A program made the translations under genes and the position numbers. Shown one piece after another: positions 3,606 to 18,186 of a DNA stretch of 36,441 nt; within the stretch, counting starts at the first letter, position 1, and each line of letters opens with the position of its first letter. The notes beneath the pieces were generated by a model, which saw nothing but the letters and a program-made list of their open reading frames with translations, made no database searches and was not told where the DNA came from. The stretch spans positions 1-36,441 of the forward strand of contig CANQMN010000005.1 in the NCBI GenBank assembly GCA_947624965.1, read 5' to 3'. The stretch comes from an uncultured Clostridia bacterium. GTDB taxonomy: Bacteria; Bacillota; Clostridia; Christensenellales; Borkfalkiaceae.

Positions 3606-4250
3606 TCAAAGAAGGGGCAGAAGCGTATCGACGAGTGATTTGATCGTTTCAAGATCGAGTTCGTGCTTTATTTTATACAACGGTTTCTTTGAATTACGTG
3701 TCCCTTTCAAAAAGAAATATCGCCGCGGAACGATTCCAGTTTCAGCCCAAAACTCCGCCTCATAGTTCAAAAATGTATTTTCTCTTCCTGCGACTTGCCC
3801 CGCAAAAACGATATAAGCACAACTTTGAGGATCAATGCCTTCTTGCTTTAATGCCTGGGCGATTTTCTTGAAATCCGCAAGTGCTCTATCAAAGTAACAT
3901 GAATCCAAGTATGTTTTGTTTTCTATAAAAGCGATTCTCTTTTCCCCATACCAAACGTGACGGTCTACTTGTATTCGATTGTTGGTATAGGTCTGTCCCT
4001 TATACATAATTGTTTTAGAGAGAAAATCGGTGTTGCCGACCTTTGAAACGATGGGCAACGGCAAAAATTTATTCATCGCATCGAAAACCGATTGCAAAAC
4101 TTTTTCTACCAACTCTCCCGCTGCATATCGTATAGTGCCTTCCGTACGATGGATTAATCCGATTTCACTCAATCTCTGCTGTTCATCATCGTATTTATCG
4201 CTGACCGCTTGAAAAATTGCCTGATAAAATTCTTCTGTTGCAAGATACAT
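3606..4250 (-). CDS. Putative type II restriction endonuclease, PD-(D/E)xK type
   Basis: A 214-residue protein between the controller and methylase genes. QVDRHVW followed by RIAFIENKTYLD places Asp96 and Glu110-x-Lys112 as a plausible PD-(D/E)xK metal-binding centre on adjacent strands. I do not recognise a named family, so the assignment rests on the catalytic pattern, the size and the position. A strong SD (GGAGGAAGAAA) precedes ATG 4250; the controller stop is 15 bp upstream, so the two are probably cotranscribed from the controller promoter. Expected role: cleavage of unmethylated recognition sites. Confidence 0.72.
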   Translation of the reverse strand: MYLATEEFYQAIFQAVSDKYDDEQQRLSEIGLIHRTEGTIRYAAGELVEKVLQSVFDAMNKFLPLPIVSKVGNTDFLSKTIMYKGQTYTNNRIQVDRHVWYGEKRIAFIENKTYLDSCYFDRALADFKKIAQALKQEGIDPQSCAYIVFAGQVAGRENTFLNYEAEFWAETGIVPRRYFFLKGTRNSKKPLYKIKHELDLETIKSLVDTLLPLL

Positions 4251-8886: not shown

Positions 8887-11800
8887 TCAGTATGTCTGCT
8901 TGGCGGGGACGACGGTCTCGGAGAGGAGCGCGGCGAGCGCCACGGCGGCGGGCGGGTCGTGCGGGTCGCCGTTGGCGTCTACATAAGAGCCGTCCGCCCA
9001 CCTCGTATTTTTCAAGGAGTCCCGAAGGTCCTCGGTGTGGCTCTTTCTCTCTCCGAGGATAGACTGATCGCGGTAGACGGTATTCTTGTGCCATTGGATA
9101 TGTTGGTAGTTCTTTACGTCCTGCTCCTTAAATTCGCACTGCAAGCGAATATACCGATCGTTTGAGAACAGGTTATCCATATTTGCCGTACCTGTAAATT
9201 TTGCGCCGCTCATCTCTGCGCTTGCCTTATCCAATCTTGTGCCTGTTGCATCCAGCATTTCATATGTTGCGGCATAGTAAGCAAAGCTCGCGCCGAGGTT
9301 TATAAGTTCTTTACTTACTATCTTGGAATTATTACCCAACGTTGCACTTCCCGCTTTATCATACGTAGTACCGTTCCAAACGAACATCTTTCCACTTAAA
9401 TCAGAAGCGGCAAATGCCAATACGTTAACATAGATTTTTTCGGTACCGCTACCGTTTGTTCTTGCCTCAACATTTTTTCCATGCCACTCGAAGTAGTCTT
9501 TGACCTTCGGTGCAACCATATCGAAACATCCTCCGACCATTGCATTCAATTTGATGAGTGCAGGGTGATTGTAATAATTGAGGATATCGATCGTACCCTT
9601 ATAATATATTTTTATATTCTGTTGCGATACCTGATCTGCCTGAACAGAGGTACCGCATTCCGTCATGACGATGTTTTCGGCGTAAAAGACATCGTTGTCA
9701 TAATAAAGTTGCACCGCCGCCTTGGGAATACAGGAAAATACAGTGTTCTTCGCGTAGAATTTCTTATTCGACGGGTTGAACTTGTAGTAGTACGACAAAT
9801 CGCAGTAATACGCATATTGCATTTTCAGCACTAACGTTTGAATTTTCCCGTCGAGTTCTGTTTGGGGATTGGCGCATTTGATAACAGCGTTATACGCCCG
9901 ATCAAACGTTACGCCCGTACTTTCGTTGTATCCGTTCTTGTATTTATGATCGCCGCTCGATAGAATCGGGTTATCTTCTACATCCTTTTTGATGACTGCA
10001 TTGTATGCCTCCATGTTGACCTGATACCCGTTGCCGTAAAGGACGGTTTTGTTGAGGTTGGACGTTCCATTCAAAACCTGCGCCGCGGGAGCTTCGGGAA
10101 CCTCATCGGGTCCGTAAAGATTTTCATGCAGCACGATGTTGGCATGCGCATAGTACCCCGCCGCGTTAAACACGTTGACGAGGGCGTCGTCCTGCAACAC
10201 GTTGAAATTGAAGTGCGCGTTCGCTTTGCCGCTCTCCGTGCCGTCGCCCGCCGCCACGCGGAGGTAGGTATAGGCGTTTTCGGAGGGCGTGAAATCCCTG
10301 CCGCTCCCCTCTTTGGCGGCGTCCGTAACCGTCTGTTCGACGAGTTTCCAGTCCGCCTTTTCGCCGAAGTTGCCGAAGTAATCGTTCTGCACGTCCACCT
10401 CGGAGAGCCCGCCGAAGTTGCCGAAATAGATGTGGGCATAGTTCTCCTCGGCGAACACGTCGATCCACGGGATGCGGTCCTCCTTCGCGACGCTCGCCTC
10501 GTACAGTCCGCCCTTCGCGATGACCGCGCCTTCCTTTTGCAGCGTGGAAGGACCGTCTCCCTCGGCGGGGGCGATCGTGTATTCAACGTTCTTCCCGTCC
10601 GCCTTGTAGGAGACCTTGGCGCCGATCTGGGTAACGAGCGTTTGGGTCTGTTTCGTCTTATCGTTGACGCGGGTGAGCGTCCACGCGATGCCGTTCACGT
10701 CGGCGGGCGTCTCGCGGACGAGGTTGCTGAGCGCCTTAACGGGCATGCGGAAGTAATCGACGGTCGTCTTGCCGTCCGCGGAGTAATCGCTGTGCTTTGC
10801 GAACACGCGCACTTGCTGATAGCCCTTGTACACGTCGCCCTTGTTGGAATCGTCCCCGCTGTCGAACCCGACAAATTCCACGCTTTGCAGATCTACCCGC
10901 GAGAAGGCGAACAAGAGCGTGTTTTCGCCGCCGTGCAGGGTGAGCGTCTCGCCCGCGAACGAGGCGAGCTCGACGGGCGGGGTCACGGTGTACTTTGCGG
11001 TCCTTTCCGTAACGTCGAAGAAGGTATTCCAGCCCGCCTTTTCCTCCAAGGCGAAGTATTCCTTCGCCGTCTCCTCGTACAGCCCGCCGAGGAAGTCGGT
11101 AAAATCGGTCGTCGTTTGAATTTCGATGTCAAACGAACCGTGCATATCCTTGGGGAATACCGCCTCGATCCGCTCCGCATCCAAGGCGTACGGTCCGAGC
11201 GGCACTTCTCCGCCGTTGTCCGTGTAGATGACCTTGACTTGGAAGGCGAGGTCGGAGAGCTCCTTCCTTTGCAGGCGGAGGGTAACTCTCGCCGTGCCGC
11301 TCTCGATGGTAAGTTCGGTCTCCTCCGCGGTGGGAGAGACGGTGAACGTGAACGTCTTTTTGTTCACATCCGCCGCCGCGGCGGCGCCGCCCTCCGTCCC
11401 GAAGGTATAATTTACCGCCTTGCCCGCGGCGGTGAGTTCCTTGCCCGTGCGCGAGGGCGTTACGGTAAAGACGAGGTGAGGAAGGAGCGTTTTATATGCG
11501 CCGCCCTCCGCGAGCGTCTTGTTCTCGCACTCCACTTTGAGCGTATCGGCGAGGACTTCGGACTTCACTTTGAACGAAAACGTCTTGCCCGCAACGGTGA
11601 GCGTCGCGCGGTCGTTTTCGCCGTAGGAGCCGTTCTTCGAGGTGAGCGTCACCGTGGCGACGTTCTCCCCGACCGAGATATCCGCGTCGAAGAAATCGTT
11701 GGCATAGAAGGCGATATCCTTCTCTTGCAGCACAAAGTCGGCGGGTTGCGGGTCGGAGACGTCGATTTTAAGCGAGACCGTCCGCCCGATATCGCCGAAC

Positions 11801-13998
11801 GCAAGCGTATCGTTCCCGTCGCCGTACGGCGCCTCGCCGAGGCGTACGGAGAGCCCGCTCGTGATTTTGCCGTCCGTCGATTGGAGCTTGCAGCTGTTCT
11901 TCGCCTGCGTCCCCGTCTTTGTTCCGTCGCACTGCGTCGCCCGTTCGCCGAACTTCACGGAGGCGTCGATGGAAACGGGCTCGGCGCCCGAGAAGGACAC
12001 CGTCTTTGTATACACGAATTTATCGTCCTCCGAAGGGACGAGGTCCTGCGTTTGGACCTTTTTGCCGCCGATCCAGAGCTCCTTGCCCTCCATTGCGCCG
12101 TCGGGCGCGGTGAGCGTTACGGTGAGTTCCGCGCTCCCCTTGGACGTAGTGTACGTCGCCCCCGAACCGATGCCCGTTCCCCCGACGGAGAAGGCGATGT
12201 CCGAAGCCTCCATGGCTCTGTCCACATACACATGGATGGTGTAGTCGGGCGTTCCGCCCGATCTTGCGGCGCGCGTTGCAACGTCGGGGACAAAGGAGAC
12301 GGTGATATTCGCAAAGCCGCCCCGGAGGGGAATGAGCCTGCTGCCCTCCACGCGCACGACTGCGGGCGCATCGGACACGATGTTCGCTTTGAGCCCCGCG
12401 AACGCGCCGAACTGCAACACGCCCTCGTTGCTCGTGTCCGCGCCCGTATAGGAGAGGGAGATGCTCTGTTCCTCGCTCCCCTCCTGCAACGTTACGACTT
12501 TATCCGACTGCTTGGGCTGGGTGTAGACGACGGTGAGTTCCGCGTACGCCGTGCCCGCCGAAACGGAGACGACCGCCGTGCCCGCCTGCTCGAATTGAAG
12601 CATCGTTCCGTCGAGATGCGCGCACGCGCATTCCTCTTTGAGCGCGTAGGTGAGCTCGTCGGTGTGGTTTGCGGGTTCGGCGCGCACGCCGAGGACCTCG
12701 TCGCTTCCGCCCGAGAGCTCGGAGAGGTTCACGCTCTTCGAGGTAATGGAGACTTCGGATTTCGCTTCGCCGTTCGCGACGAAGGAGAGCGCGCGTGTCT
12801 GCCGCGTGACGGTAACGGTGCAGACGTCGTCCGAAAACGCCTTGACCGTGCCGCTCGCGCGGTCGTACTTGGTCGCGTAGACGGTGATCTCCACCGTGCC
12901 GAGCTCTGTCCCGTCGCCCACGTTTTTCAATGTGAATTTCTTCGCGGCGTCGTCGTATTCGATGAGGTCGGGACCTCTGAATTCGACCCTGTCGATGCGC
13001 TGATAGCAATCGTCGAGGTCGCTGCGGAAGGCGAGCGCGGAAAGTTCTTCGCCCGCAAGCGTATCGTAATCGAAGGTATATTCCGTCCTGTCGAACAATC
13101 TGCCCAAATAGTAGCCGAACGTGCAGACGTAACGAACGGAGACGCTGTCGGTATTCCCTCTGCCGTCCGCCGCCGTCGCGGTGATCGTAACGGGACCGGC
13201 GCTGTGAAAGACGATCGCGCCCGTTTGGTCGACGGTGGCGACGCTCCGATCGGAGGAGGCATATTCCAAGGCGTACGTCGCATCCTCGGGGACGGGAGAG
13301 ATCGCGGGGAACTGCGCCCGCTCCTTCGCCGTCTCGACGGGCGTCGTCTCCGCGGAGATGCTCCGGAGAGGGATGTGGCAGGTAAATTCCATCGTCGCCG
13401 CGATGGCGGGATCCTCGACGGACGCCACGGTGACGGTCGCCGTGCCCTTGCCGAGACACTTCACCTCCCCGCTCTGCGTGACGGAGAGGATCTCGGGCGC
13501 GGAAGAACTCCACGTGACCCGCTTATCCGTCGCCCCTTCGGGGAGCACTTCGACGGAAAGGCGGAAGGGATCGTCCCCCCGATAGAGGTCGCGCGCGTGC
13601 TCGCCGAGGACGACGCTGTGCACGCTGTCGTCCGTAACGATGACCTTGCGCTTGGCGGTCGCCGCGCTGTTTTCGAGGCTCGTTACGGTGATATAGGTCT
13701 CGCCGAAGCCCTTCGCGGTCACGAGCCCGTTCCCGTCCACGGAGACGATGTTCTCGTCGTCCACCGTGTAGACGAGGTCGCGGTTCTCCGCCTTCAAGGG
13801 GAGCACGGTAACGAGGAGTTGTTCCTGCGGCGGGGCGGTCTCATCGTCCATTTCGAGCACCAGCGCGGAATTTTCGACGAACTCCACCGACTCGACGAAT
13901 ATATGGGTAACGAGGCTCATGATCGCCCCGCTTACAAGCATGATCGCCAGCACGATGAGCGGCAATAATATTATCGTAGAGATCATCAACTTTTTCAT
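8887..13998 (-). CDS. Large membrane-anchored surface protein with Ig-like (Big_2) repeats and a probable beta-helix
   Basis: The 1703-residue protein begins with a hydrophobic signal anchor (MKKLMISTIILLPLIVLAIM...). Residues about 50-300 hold Big_2-type bacterial Ig domains with the usual D.(N/S)IVSV...G.VTAKGFGETYITVTS pattern, repeated with variation, followed by many beta-sandwich-like segments. From about residue 1270 onward the character changes: strand-turn repeats such as FYAKNTVFSCIPKAAVQLYYDNDVF suggest a parallel beta-helix, and the DNA at about 9160-10060 is clearly richer in A and T. No LPXTG or C-terminal anchor is seen, so it is probably held by its N-terminal segment. The start lies 15 bp past the permease stop. 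Likely role: binding or adhesion outside the cell together with the ABC proteins; ligand unknown. Confidence 0.85.
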   Translation of the reverse strand: MKKLMISTIILLPLIVLAIMLVSGAIMSLVTHIFVESVEFVENSALVLEMDDETAPPQEQLLVTVLPLKAENRDLVYTVDDENIVSVDGNGLVTAKGFGETYITVTSLENSAATAKRKVIVTDDSVHSVVLGEHARDLYRGDDPFRLSVEVLPEGATDKRVTWSSSAPEILSVTQSGEVKCLGKGTATVTVASVEDPAIAATMEFTCHIPLRSISAETTPVETAKERAQFPAISPVPEDATYALEYASSDRSVATVDQTGAIVFHSAGPVTITATAADGRGNTDSVSVRYVCTFGYYLGRLFDRTEYTFDYDTLAGEELSALAFRSDLDDCYQRIDRVEFRGPDLIEYDDAAKKFTLKNVGDGTELGTVEITVYATKYDRASGTVKAFSDDVCTVTVTRQTRALSFVANGEAKSEVSITSKSVNLSELSGGSDEVLGVRAEPANHTDELTYALKEECACAHLDGTMLQFEQAGTAVVSVSAGTAYAELTVVYTQPKQSDKVVTLQEGSEEQSISLSYTGADTSNEGVLQFGAFAGLKANIVSDAPAVVRVEGSRLIPLRGGFANITVSFVPDVATRAARSGGTPDYTIHVYVDRAMEASDIAFSVGGTGIGSGATYTTSKGSAELTVTLTAPDGAMEGKELWIGGKKVQTQDLVPSEDDKFVYTKTVSFSGAEPVSIDASVKFGERATQCDGTKTGTQAKNSCKLQSTDGKITSGLSVRLGEAPYGDGNDTLAFGDIGRTVSLKIDVSDPQPADFVLQEKDIAFYANDFFDADISVGENVATVTLTSKNGSYGENDRATLTVAGKTFSFKVKSEVLADTLKVECENKTLAEGGAYKTLLPHLVFTVTPSRTGKELTAAGKAVNYTFGTEGGAAAAADVNKKTFTFTVSPTAEETELTIESGTARVTLRLQRKELSDLAFQVKVIYTDNGGEVPLGPYALDAERIEAVFPKDMHGSFDIEIQTTTDFTDFLGGLYEETAKEYFALEEKAGWNTFFDVTERTAKYTVTPPVELASFAGETLTLHGGENTLLFAFSRVDLQSVEFVGFDSGDDSNKGDVYKGYQQVRVFAKHSDYSADGKTTVDYFRMPVKALSNLVRETPADVNGIAWTLTRVNDKTKQTQTLVTQIGAKVSYKADGKNVEYTIAPAEGDGPSTLQKEGAVIAKGGLYEASVAKEDRIPWIDVFAEENYAHIYFGNFGGLSEVDVQNDYFGNFGEKADWKLVEQTVTDAAKEGSGRDFTPSENAYTYLRVAAGDGTESGKANAHFNFNVLQDDALVNVFNAAGYYAHANIVLHENLYGPDEVPEAPAAQVLNGTSNLNKTVLYGNGYQVNMEAYNAVIKKDVEDNPILSSGDHKYKNGYNESTGVTFDRAYNAVIKCANPQTELDGKIQTLVLKMQYAYYCDLSYYYKFNPSNKKFYAKNTVFSCIPKAAVQLYYDNDVFYAENIVMTECGTSVQADQVSQQNIKIYYKGTIDILNYYNHPALIKLNAMVGGCFDMVAPKVKDYFEWHGKNVEARTNGSGTEKIYVNVLAFAASDLSGKMFVWNGTTYDKAGSATLGNNSKIVSKELINLGASFAYYAATYEMLDATGTRLDKASAEMSGAKFTGTANMDNLFSNDRYIRLQCEFKEQDVKNYQHIQWHKNTVYRDQSILGERKSHTEDLRDSLKNTRWADGSYVDANGDPHDPPAAVALAALLSETVVPAKQTY

Positions 13999-14013: not shown

Positions 14014-15615
14014 TTATCCTTCGATCTTTCCGTATTTTTTATCGACCGTAAACCAATACACCGCAAAATTGATCAGCGCATACAGCGCCGCCGCGCCGAT
14101 CGTATAGCCGTACGCCCAGAACTTTCCCCCGTCGAACACCCGCGGGAAGATGATCCCGATCGCGCCCAACACCGCCGAGAGCGCCAGCCCGATGAGCAGC
14201 ATATAGGCGATATTGATCTCCTCCGCTTCCCCGTTCGCCTTGGGCTTTAAGCTCGGGTTCGCCAAATTCAGATTGATGCCGTTGAACACCAGCCCCGCCG
14301 CAAGCAAAATTTGCGCCGCCACCAGAGCCGCCGCCTCGCCCGCGTTCAAAAATTCGAGACTGCACGCCACGACGACGCTGATCGCCAACGCCGCGAGGCT
14401 CACCCCCACCGCGAGCGACCCTTTGATGAGCAGTTGCTTCCGATAGGGAACGGGGATGAGTTTCGTGATGTAAAAATTCTTTCCCTCCACGCTCAAAACC
14501 GTGCCCGAAAAAGAACTTATCATCGCCATGAATACGGACATTACCAGCATCGATGCGCCGAAATTGATCCCCGCGCCCACCTGCGCTTCCCCGACCAGCG
14601 TTACCAGCCTGTGGCAGAAAAACACCATCACGGGCGTGGAGATCGCCACGCCCAAATAGAAATACGCGTACGTCTTCGTCCGCAAAATTTCCTTGAACCC
14701 GTACCGCAGGATCGCTCTCCCGCTTCCGTATCCGTCCATTTCGCTCCGACGGCGGTTCTTGCCGAAGCCCGTCTCCAACGCCCGCTTGCGGATGTCCGCG
14801 CACACAACGCGCGCCAACGCCGTTCCCGCGGCGATGAGAAGCGCGCTCCCGCCCAACAACACGCCCAGCCCCAACGCCCAGCCGTCGAAGAAAATCACGT
14901 TCCCGAGATAGAACGCGGGATTATAGTACGCGTCCAGCCCTTCCAGCAATCCTTTCCAGATTTCCAGCGTCCCCTGCTGCCAATTTCTGCGGATGAAGAA
15001 TTGCGCCAGCTCCGTCAGGATCCTGTTGTACAGCACGAAACAGCCCGCCAAAATCGCAACGAACAGAATGAGCCGAACCGCGCCGTGTTTCTCCAACAGC
15101 GCCGCCGCATACACGAGCGGGATCGCCGCGAACACCGAGAGCGCAAACGGCACCAGCGGCATGAGGATCGTGCCCAGAAGCATTCCCAATACATACAGCC
15201 CCGTGAAGCAGTCCATCGCGATCCCGAACACCACCATCACGGGGAGCGTCAGGATCGCCGTATAGATGCACAGATCGATATAGTTCAAGACGAGATAGCC
15301 GACAAAGAGTTTGAACGGGCTCAGCGGGAAGCGCGCGGAGATCTTCAAATCGGCGGGACGGTACAGCCTGTTCATCTGCATGCCCGTCGCCGCGACCGTC
15401 AGCCCCGCCATGATCACCGTGAGGTAGAGCTGCGCCAGTTCCTTCCCCGTTGTTTGGAGGCTCGTGCGCAAAACATACGTCAACGCCAACACCAGCCCGA
15501 GCGCGACCGCGACCGCAAACAGCGCCGCGAGCCCCGTCATCGCCGCGCTCGCCTTGTTATTGTTTCGGTTGTAGCCCCATTTGAGTTTCAGTTGCAACCG
15601 TATAAATTCACGCAT
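14014..15615 (-). CDS. ABC-2-like transporter permease, about 12 membrane segments
   Basis: The 533-residue protein is strongly hydrophobic, with roughly a dozen predicted membrane segments and a cytoplasmic loop around residues 275-300 (RKRALETGFGKNRRRSEMDGYG). The N-terminal REFIRLQLKLKWGYNRN and the two-half layout resemble large ABC exporter permeases of Firmicutes that pair with a single soluble ATPase. Its ATG overlaps the ATPase stop by 8 bp and its stop is 15 bp from the surface-protein start, so the three genes form one operon. The substrate is unknown; it may export or organise the neighbouring Ig-like protein or another surface polymer. Confidence 0.82.
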   Translation of the reverse strand: MREFIRLQLKLKWGYNRNNNKASAAMTGLAALFAVAVALGLVLALTYVLRTSLQTTGKELAQLYLTVIMAGLTVAATGMQMNRLYRPADLKISARFPLSPFKLFVGYLVLNYIDLCIYTAILTLPVMVVFGIAMDCFTGLYVLGMLLGTILMPLVPFALSVFAAIPLVYAAALLEKHGAVRLILFVAILAGCFVLYNRILTELAQFFIRRNWQQGTLEIWKGLLEGLDAYYNPAFYLGNVIFFDGWALGLGVLLGGSALLIAAGTALARVVCADIRKRALETGFGKNRRRSEMDGYGSGRAILRYGFKEILRTKTYAYFYLGVAISTPVMVFFCHRLVTLVGEAQVGAGINFGASMLVMSVFMAMISSFSGTVLSVEGKNFYITKLIPVPYRKQLLIKGSLAVGVSLAALAISVVVACSLEFLNAGEAAALVAAQILLAAGLVFNGINLNLANPSLKPKANGEAEEINIAYMLLIGLALSAVLGAIGIIFPRVFDGGKFWAYGYTIGAAALYALINFAVYWFTVDKKYGKIEG

Positions 15616-16330
15616 CCTGTTTTTCCTCGTTCAACGCTGTATAGTATCTGTCTAAATCGAATGCTTTTTCCTCCCTCAAATCGACTTCGTTCGCCACTTC
15701 CCCTTTCCGGATGAAGATCACCCTGTCGCACGTCTTGCCCACGACTTCCAGATTGTGCGTCGAAAACAGCACGGACCGATCGCCGACCGCATATCCCCTG
15801 ATGTACTCGCACAGCATTTTCATCGTCTGATGATCGAGCCCGACCATCGGCTCGTCCAAGATCCACAGCTTCGGCTCGTGCACGAGCGCGCCCAAAATAC
15901 AAATTTTCTGCCGCATTCCGTGCGAATACCCCGCGATCTGGATATCCAGCGCGTACTTGATATCGAACCGCTCCGCAAGCTCGTCGGTGATGAACTTCTT
16001 CCTCTCCTTCGACGCGCCCCACAGGCTCCCCATGTAATTGACGTATTCTCTGCCCGTCAATTTCTCGTATACGCTGTGATCGTCGGGAACGTACCCGATT
16101 TGCCGTTTCGCCTTCTCCGGCTCCTTCATGAGGTCGTATCCGCCGACCTTGACGACGCCCTCTTCATACGGCAATACGCCGATGATGCTCTTGATGATGG
16201 TGGATTTTCCCGCGCCGTTGCTCCCTACCAAGCCGACGACTTCTCCGTCGTTGACTTTGATGTTGATGTGCCGCGCGGAATACTTTTCGTTATTCTTGTA
16301 CTTCTTTGAAAGATCGATGACTTCTAACAT
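15608..16330 (-). CDS. ABC transporter ATP-binding protein
   Basis: The 240-residue ATPase has Walker A GSNGAGKST (36-44), a Q-loop region QIGYVPDDHSVYEKLT, the signature YSHGMRQK near 135, Walker B LWILDEP and the H-loop STHNLE. This is the CcmA/YtrB-type exporter ATPase class that pairs with a polytopic permease. I chose ATG 16330, preceded by GGAAGGAAAACA; an in-frame ATG at 16399 would add 23 poorly conserved residues. It is the first gene of the operon downstream of the invertible promoter. Confidence 0.93.
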   Translation of the reverse strand: MLEVIDLSKKYKNNEKYSARHINIKVNDGEVVGLVGSNGAGKSTIIKSIIGVLPYEEGVVKVGGYDLMKEPEKAKRQIGYVPDDHSVYEKLTGREYVNYMGSLWGASKERKKFITDELAERFDIKYALDIQIAGYSHGMRQKICILGALVHEPKLWILDEPMVGLDHQTMKMLCEYIRGYAVGDRSVLFSTHNLEVVGKTCDRVIFIRKGEVANEVDLREEKAFDLDRYYTALNEEKQDA

Positions 16331-16432: not shown

Positions 16433-16593
16433 CTATTTTACGTTAACGTCTCATTTTGCCTGTTTTTCACACCCATCTAATCGATTTTGTGCCTATATTG
16501 CACCGTTTTACGCACTATTGCGCAAAGATTGTTCATATTGTCCTCGCTGTGAAAAACACGCCGATCTGTCTAATCTATGTGCTTTCGTGTCCT

Positions 16594-16622
16594 ATTATAT
16601 TACGCGAAGGGTCTTTTGTCAA
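16594..16622 (-). promoter_or_regulatory. Perfect consensus promoter inside the invertible segment
   Basis: On the minus strand TTGACA (16622-16617) and TATAAT (16599-16594) are separated by exactly 17 bp. Transcription would begin near 16587, cross the left inverted repeat and reach the ABC ATPase gene after a leader of about 257 nt. Confidence 0.88.
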
Positions 16623-16638
16623 ACGCATAGCGCGGCGC

Positions 16639-16689
16639 GGCGGAAAAATTTATTCGGGCGACCGCTTTTTTTCGGCGAAATTTTCCGCC
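16639..16689. other. Hairpin inside the invertible segment, upstream of the promoter
   Basis: GGCGGAAAAATTT (16639-16651) and AAATTTTCCGCC (16678-16689) pair with a single bulged base. It lies between the right inverted repeat and the promoter. It could block transcription arriving from the recombinase gene, but no T-run follows directly, so a terminator role is uncertain. Confidence 0.45.
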
Positions 16690-16747
16690 GATCGCTACAT
16701 AGATTAGACAGATCGATGTACAGGGCGGTGCAAAAGCGCCGCCCCTC

Positions 16748-17954: not shown

Positions 17955-18186
17955 CGCGGGCTTGGGCTCCTTGGCGCTCATCGCGCCGAATATTCCTTTG
18001 CGCGGCGCATGCAAATTCCCCTCTCCGTAAGTTTTTCCGTGTCTCTTCCCGAAAGTCATCCTTCTCTCCCCGCGGGCTTGGGCTCCTGGCGCTCACCGCG
18101 CCGAATACGCCTCCGCGCGGCGCATGCAAATTGCCTTGTCCGTAAGTTTTTCCGCATCTCTTCCCGAAAATCATCCTTCTCTCCCG
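17955..18186. repeat. 116-bp tandem repeat, two copies
   Basis: Two units (about 17955-18070 and 18071-18186) have CTTGGGCTCC at 17961 and 18077, a period of 116 bp, with about a dozen differences. Each contains GGCGC...GCGCC and GCGCGGCGCATGCAAATT. The 600-bp gap 17663-18263 has no convincing gene; open minus-strand frames across the repeat lack conserved features. Confidence 0.8.

Follow-up and report, generated by a model that had tools for sequence, protein, structure and literature searches.

The DNA analysed here, a whole stretch of 36,441 nucleotides from an uncultured Clostridia bacterium that we call the window, raises the question of whether the short segment between a tyrosine recombinase gene and an ABC-transporter operon is a promoter that can be turned over. 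We consider it quite probable (roughly 0.86) that the locus is a promoter-inversion phase switch worked by the adjacent tyrosine recombinase.

The segment and its neighbours

A reading made from the sequence alone had described perfect 19-bp inverted repeats around 116 bp, and both the coordinates and the exact complementarity of the repeats were confirmed (Table 1). The window therefore has the short segment between inverted repeats that is one criterion for an inverton. With up to three mismatches allowed, the arm matched twice in the window, compared to 0.01 matches expected from shuffles, and across the whole 1.79-Mb source genome (34 contigs, 98.7% complete) it matched at these two positions only; a scan of viral contigs with the arm gave no match. 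Overlapping the arms are two putative recombination sites. The spacer of the recombinase-proximal one is CTGTCTA (16705-16711) and an identical 7-bp spacer lies at 16566-16572 in the operon-proximal one, of which the outer half-site has diverged and the score falls below the threshold of our site scan.

Table 1. Positions and properties of the features at the window locus
Feature	Position	Strand	Remarks
Left 19-bp inverted repeat arm	16562..16580	.	CGATCTGTCTAATCTATGT
Right 19-bp inverted repeat arm	16697..16715	.	Exact reverse complement of CGATCTGTCTAATCTATGT
116-bp inter-arm segment, candidate for inversion	16581..16696	.	
Recombinase-proximal recombination site (putative)	16695..16721	-	Half-site GTACATCGAT, spacer, half-site ATCTATGTAG
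Operon-proximal recombination site (putative)	16556..16582	+	7-bp spacer as in the recombinase-proximal site
Consensus promoter TTGACA-17-TATAAT in the segment, facing the operon	16594..16622	-	12/12 match
Fixed promoter TTGCAA-16-TATAAT outside the segment	16405..16432	-	10/12 match
Terminator-like 9-bp hairpin between recombinase 3' end and switch	16723..16744	+	Weak U-tract, + strand only
Tyrosine recombinase, 304 aa	16748..17662	-	Catalytic R142, K184, H247, R250, H273, Y283
ABC transporter ATPase, 240 aa, first gene of the target operon	15608..16330	-	
ABC-2-like permease, 533 aa	14014..15615	-	PF16949, 23.3 bits (cut-off 25.7)
Giant protein, 1703 aa	8887..13998	-	Big_2 Ig-like domains, N-terminal hydrophobic segment

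The neighbouring recombinase was also as first described, with all catalytic motifs and 32 bp between the end of its gene and the right repeat. Its six catalytic residues were identical in 74 of 74 loci including the window, and a nearby site-specific recombinase with complete catalytic residues, a further inverton criterion, is thus present. It was rejected as a FimB/FimE-type DNA invertase (22.7 bits against a cut-off of 222, NF007371) and as XerC/XerD (73.5 against 335 bits, TIGR02224; 56.6 against 330 bits, TIGR02225). Sequence relatives were found among solved Int proteins, one being 6en0, the Int of Tn1549. When nine window proteins were run against PHROGs, the recombinase matched phrog_1 (integrase) and the product of 3606-4250 matched phrog_10849 (unknown function), and none of the nine matched any other phage family. 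The scope of the statement that phage and conjugation genes are absent is the proteins tested, with these two matches as exceptions; no mobile-element genes were recognized around the recombinase among the subset of window proteins examined. Upstream of the recombinase gene there is a 99-bp direct repeat, 89% identical (17972-18070 and 18087-18185).

It might be supposed that the family inverts while the window copy is locked or decaying, fixed toward the operon and working as an ordinary promoter. The divergence of the outer half of the operon-proximal site would agree with this, as would the failure to find an inverted copy in the genome or in the viral-contig scan. However, the arms and the 7-bp spacer are perfectly kept, the six catalytic residues are intact, and right-hand sites deviate elsewhere in the family too, as in L061, L063 and L066. 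We regard a locked copy as unlikely.

To return to a switch that still inverts, the promoter described as flawless and aimed at the ABC operon matches the consensus at all of its positions, and by this sequence match a promoter directed at the target operon lies within the segment, as a further criterion for invertons has it. Throughout the genome, TTGACA/TATAAT at a spacing of 16-18 occurred 78 times (34 forward, 44 reverse), compared to 0 for the reversed control pattern, which indicates that this pair is a real signal in the source organism. The genes for the ABC ATPase, the permease and the 1703-residue Ig-like protein do follow downstream, all in the direction of the promoter. A profile of the permease had no match among solved structures, and the giant protein gave two short partial matches there, to a glucanase and a phage short tail fibre. 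The giant protein is presumably located at the surface. An open frame of 1280 codons (10126-13968, plus strand) runs antisense to its gene and is probably an effect of composition.

Outside the segment, the weaker fixed promoter that had been suggested is present. The hairpin has a folding energy of -20.1 kcal/mol (z -3.0), and terminator-like matches, of which there were 9 in 2.5 kb against 3.6 expected, are frequent by chance here too. The hairpin may keep antisense transcripts from running far into the recombinase gene. The flipped promoter had been predicted to run antisense into the 3' end of the recombinase gene; the direction stands, but long antisense transcription is doubtful because the hairpin intervenes between the switch and the recombinase. 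The recombinase and the operon are co-directional and the hairpin lacks a U-tract in the operon direction, so that read-through from the recombinase could feed the operon, a point that we count against the switch.

The recombinase family and its sites

We surveyed 74 recombinase loci, comprising the window, 60 picked among the congeneric matches listed (mostly full-length and at least 42% identical, with some listed matches omitted) and 13 from a second search, after removal of one duplicate, of fragments and of records already in the first list. The relatives come from uncultured Clostridia and two Pumilibacter species; many isolates of the former are named 'Lapin' and were therefore probably obtained from rabbit gut. 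Among 103 congeneric genomes, 90 had matches to the recombinase at E<=1e-3, distant ones included; at E<=1e-60, matches were present in 47 of the 151 genomes sampled from the family, in 12 of 18 genera.

An inverted-repeat segment (score at least 12, span 80-300, within 700 bp) was found 3' of the recombinase in 36 of the 74 loci, compared to 6 of 360 shuffled tails. This count leaves out L068, with a segment beyond 700 bp, and L098, with a segment on the 5' side. For four of the 36 (L064, L065, L075 and L082) the best-scoring pair was unlike family sites, and L064 and L075 have family sites elsewhere at the locus. Upstream flanks contained such segments in 10 of 71 cases, one of which, in L098, was a true family site pair, lying at -523 and -373. 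The better-scoring promoter match in the 36 segments was directed at the recombinase in 22, at the downstream gene in 7 and at neither in 1 because of a tie, and 6 had none. The other 38 loci had no inverted-repeat segment within 700 bp on the 3' side, and this is counted against a switch.

In most sites, a 7-bp spacer separates half-sites that are each about 10 bp long. Within a switch, both spacers agreed at 7 of 7 positions in 33 of 37 rows, an agreement that is partly implied by the way in which repeats were found, and one exception was cut by a contig end; between many loci the spacer sequence varied. A scan of 35 loci with the site of the window's clade identified 34 sites in 21 loci and none in shuffles. 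All but two of the sites (32 of 34) lay 3' of the recombinase within 1.3 kb, the remaining two being those of L098. No site was found in 14 of the 35 loci, which again counts against the switch. Half-site sequence tends to track the phylogeny of the recombinases: GTACATAGA is that of the window's clade (with L056 as a deviant), GTACRCGGA that of L078-L085 and CGYCTA that of a 12-row clade. In the tree used here, 23 of the 71 inner branches are open and the bootstrap is not settled. L070 has three sites 3' of the recombinase (+243, +266 and +405) rather than two, which suggests a partial duplication.

Another explanation would make the recombinase a mobile-element integrase and the inverted repeats attachment-site remnants or element ends. 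Its matches to phage integrase families and solved Int proteins fit this view, as does the absence of a detectable 3' segment in 38 of 74 relatives. On the other hand, no other phage or conjugation genes were recognized among the window proteins tested, the sites are inverted, mostly bear promoters and lie near the recombinase, and homologous segments were found inverted (see below). An integrase of this kind seems highly improbable to us.

Contig breaks were considered as a sign of mixed orientation and rejected, because contig ends showed no clear excess 3' of the recombinase (9 against 5 on the 5' side within 1 kb, n=61; 2 against 2 within 250 bp, 4 against 4 within 500 bp and 11 against 10 within 2000 bp).

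Evidence for inversion came from the segments of relatives. In the 12-row clade, the segment of L105 matched the reverse complement of those of L102, L104, L106, L108 and L115, with scores of 40-78 when flipped and 9-14 when not, the highest of 595 shuffled comparisons being 13. With L104, 108 of 124 aligned bases agreed in the flipped sense, compared to a gap-rich 70 of 95 in the unflipped one. The right flanks of L105 and its relatives align in the same sense, and its outer half-sites resemble those of the relatives in place while the inner ones are exchanged, as expected from an exchange of strands inside the 7-bp spacer. In the window's own clade, L058 and L070 matched flipped (21.5 against 8.5). 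Homologous switches in both orientations, a further inverton criterion, were thus found between species, in two separate recombinase clades. The search for a flipped form in relatives, which the sequence-only reading had called for, therefore gave opposite orientations in related species, including switches before the same operon, and supports an invertible promoter. The inner segment of the window was outside the 60 best pairs of the segment alignment, and so could not be aligned to that of a relative above chance.

All of the flips are comparisons between species, with one genome per species. This would suit a different view, in which the repeats act as an operator or a regulatory hairpin, and the differences in orientation go back to old single rearrangements with no ongoing switching. 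The uneven promoter directions (22 of 36 to the recombinase and 7 of 36 to the downstream gene) also favour it. Against it are the flips in two separate recombinase clades and the swapped half-sites, which fit an exchange in the recombinase spacer, and we find old rearrangements very unlikely as the explanation.

The operon and other genes behind the switch

The permease was found at E<=1e-40 in 34 of 103 congeneric genomes. We compared 34 operon stretches from 33 genomes, with two stretches from G081 and a partial match in G084 left out; the N-terminus of the giant protein was present in 32 of them and the two misses were cut by contig ends. Only 5 of the 34 (the window, L058, L059, L068 and L070) had the recombinase and an upstream inverted-repeat segment, and the switch therefore looks like an add-on. 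Inverted repeats scoring at least 12 occurred upstream in 7 of the 29 operons that lack an adjacent recombinase (L130, L132, L136, L137, L141, L146 and L150), with family-like sites only in L136 and, doubtfully, L150. In L136 the family-like segment lies upstream of the operon with no adjacent recombinase. In other genera of the family, the recombinase and inverted repeats were upstream in 1 of 4 operon stretches, L185. The recombinase there is 54% identical; other DNA separates it and the inverted-repeat segment from a related ABC ATPase gene, which lies about 1.1 kb downstream.

Several species without the switch have a native promoter, AATCGGTTGCCTTTTTT...TATAAT, that faces the operon. A model of it, trained on five switch-less sequences, gave inside the segment 27.3 for L058, facing the operon, and 31.6 for L059 and 21.0 for L070, both facing away; the largest value of 340 shuffles, which preserve base composition only, was 17.0. 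The in-segment match of L136 (17.1, facing away) is barely above this null and is not counted as proof. Among the other switch-less species, L133, L135, L154 and L155 exceeded 17, all facing the operon, and most others had no match; outside the training set, 19 of the 24 recombinase-less stretches scored at most 17. The native promoter of L068 lies outside the segment (33.0). In the window, the best match to the model is the fixed promoter, which is weak at 13.5 (95th percentile of shuffles, 13.2). By these matches there are two layouts, in which the native promoter is either captured between the sites (L058, L059 and L070) or kept downstream, the window being of the second type. In L059, the same ABC operon is preceded by two inverted-repeat segments in tandem (+31 to +385 3' of the recombinase), which differ in their spacers, and the highest-scoring promoter match of each segment is directed away from the operon.

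Of 34 first downstream genes listed at related switches, 22 were run against Pfam; the 12 omitted were 4 ATPases of the same operon and 8 genes whose segments were distant, short or doubtful. The matches were to alpha-amylase (7), the N-terminal methylation motif (3), Flg_new, the InlB-type B-repeat, DUF6273 and GLUG (2 each), and singly to other families, including leucine-rich repeat and helicase domains, so that not every switch target is a surface protein. Downstream genes of L095, L102, L104, L105, L106, L108 and L115 encode lipoprotein-like N-termini and, judged by these N-termini and by length, are most likely the alpha-amylases. Behind the switches of L061, L067 and L071, the first gene codes for a very large protein whose N-terminus resembles that of type IV pilins.

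Proposed mechanism and known systems

We infer from these comparisons that the window segment itself inverts, that the adjacent recombinase does this and that expression changes as a result. The recombinase would bind both sites, each a half-site, a 7-bp spacer and a half-site, and strand exchange in the spacer would invert the 116-bp segment. As sequenced, the segment has the orientation that we take as the high-expression state, in which the consensus promoter would drive the ABC ATPase-permease-giant Ig-like operon. After inversion, it would point at the hairpin and then at the recombinase 3' end, and the operon would depend on the weaker fixed promoter, perhaps aided by read-through from the recombinase gene. 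Because this weak, native-like promoter stays outside the segment, inversion probably gives high or basal expression rather than ON or OFF. For the same reason the switch of the window may not be decisive, and we count this against the switch reading.

Tentatively, and with slightly less than even confidence, we suggest a modular cassette that is family-wide, made up of a recombinase and two sites whose half-sites are specific to the clade and whose spacers are specific to the locus. It would have come to lie again and again in front of unrelated genes, including surface-type, pilin-like and amylase genes, where it would either capture the native promoter or, as in the window, add a strong invertible one while the native one is retained downstream, and so give graded control instead of ON or OFF. 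The data suggest that promoter inversion driven by recombinases occurs across gut Clostridia related to Pumilibacter. A natural experiment is offered by the three-gene operon, which some congeneric species have with a switch and others without one and whose native promoter occurs in both directions, and the clade-specific half-sites and variable spacers provide recombinase/site pairs for probing the determinants of specificity.

Titles and abstract openings of the Pumilibacter literature gave no report of phase variation, and the portions available of the literature on invertible promoters and invertons gave nothing on the operon of the window. By sequence, the window recombinase is related to conjugative-transposon and phage integrases, both to PHROGs families and to Int proteins of solved structure, but the window has adjacent inverted sites with a promoter and no element genes among the tested proteins. 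In E. coli, fimB and fimE adjoin the fim switch. The window recombinase differs from FimB/FimE in its low score with the DNA invertase model (22.7 bits, cut-off 222). Like the window segment, the fim switch is a promoter-containing invertible element, according to the available part of its description (PMC7241687). In C. difficile, the tyrosine recombinase RecV acts on several switches, including those of cwpV and flgB, and as in the window, the segment lies ahead of a cell-wall protein gene or operon in a member of the Clostridia (PMC7446863, in the part available). RecV is needed for several switches, and in the OFF state the flagellar operon depends on Rho for its silencing (PMC7446863, same part), whereas the window genome has a single pair of its sites and the window segment carries a consensus promoter. 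Invertons of gut bacteria, often near cell-surface genes, are known with nearby tyrosine recombinases, and in Clostridia inverton group 139 lies near group-35 tyrosine recombinases; the part of that report available names neither the taxon nor the operon of the window (PMC11892184). They share with the window the segment between inverted repeats and the tyrosine recombinase nearby (PMC11892184, same part). The window switch is a further example of the known promoter-inversion phase variation by a tyrosine recombinase.
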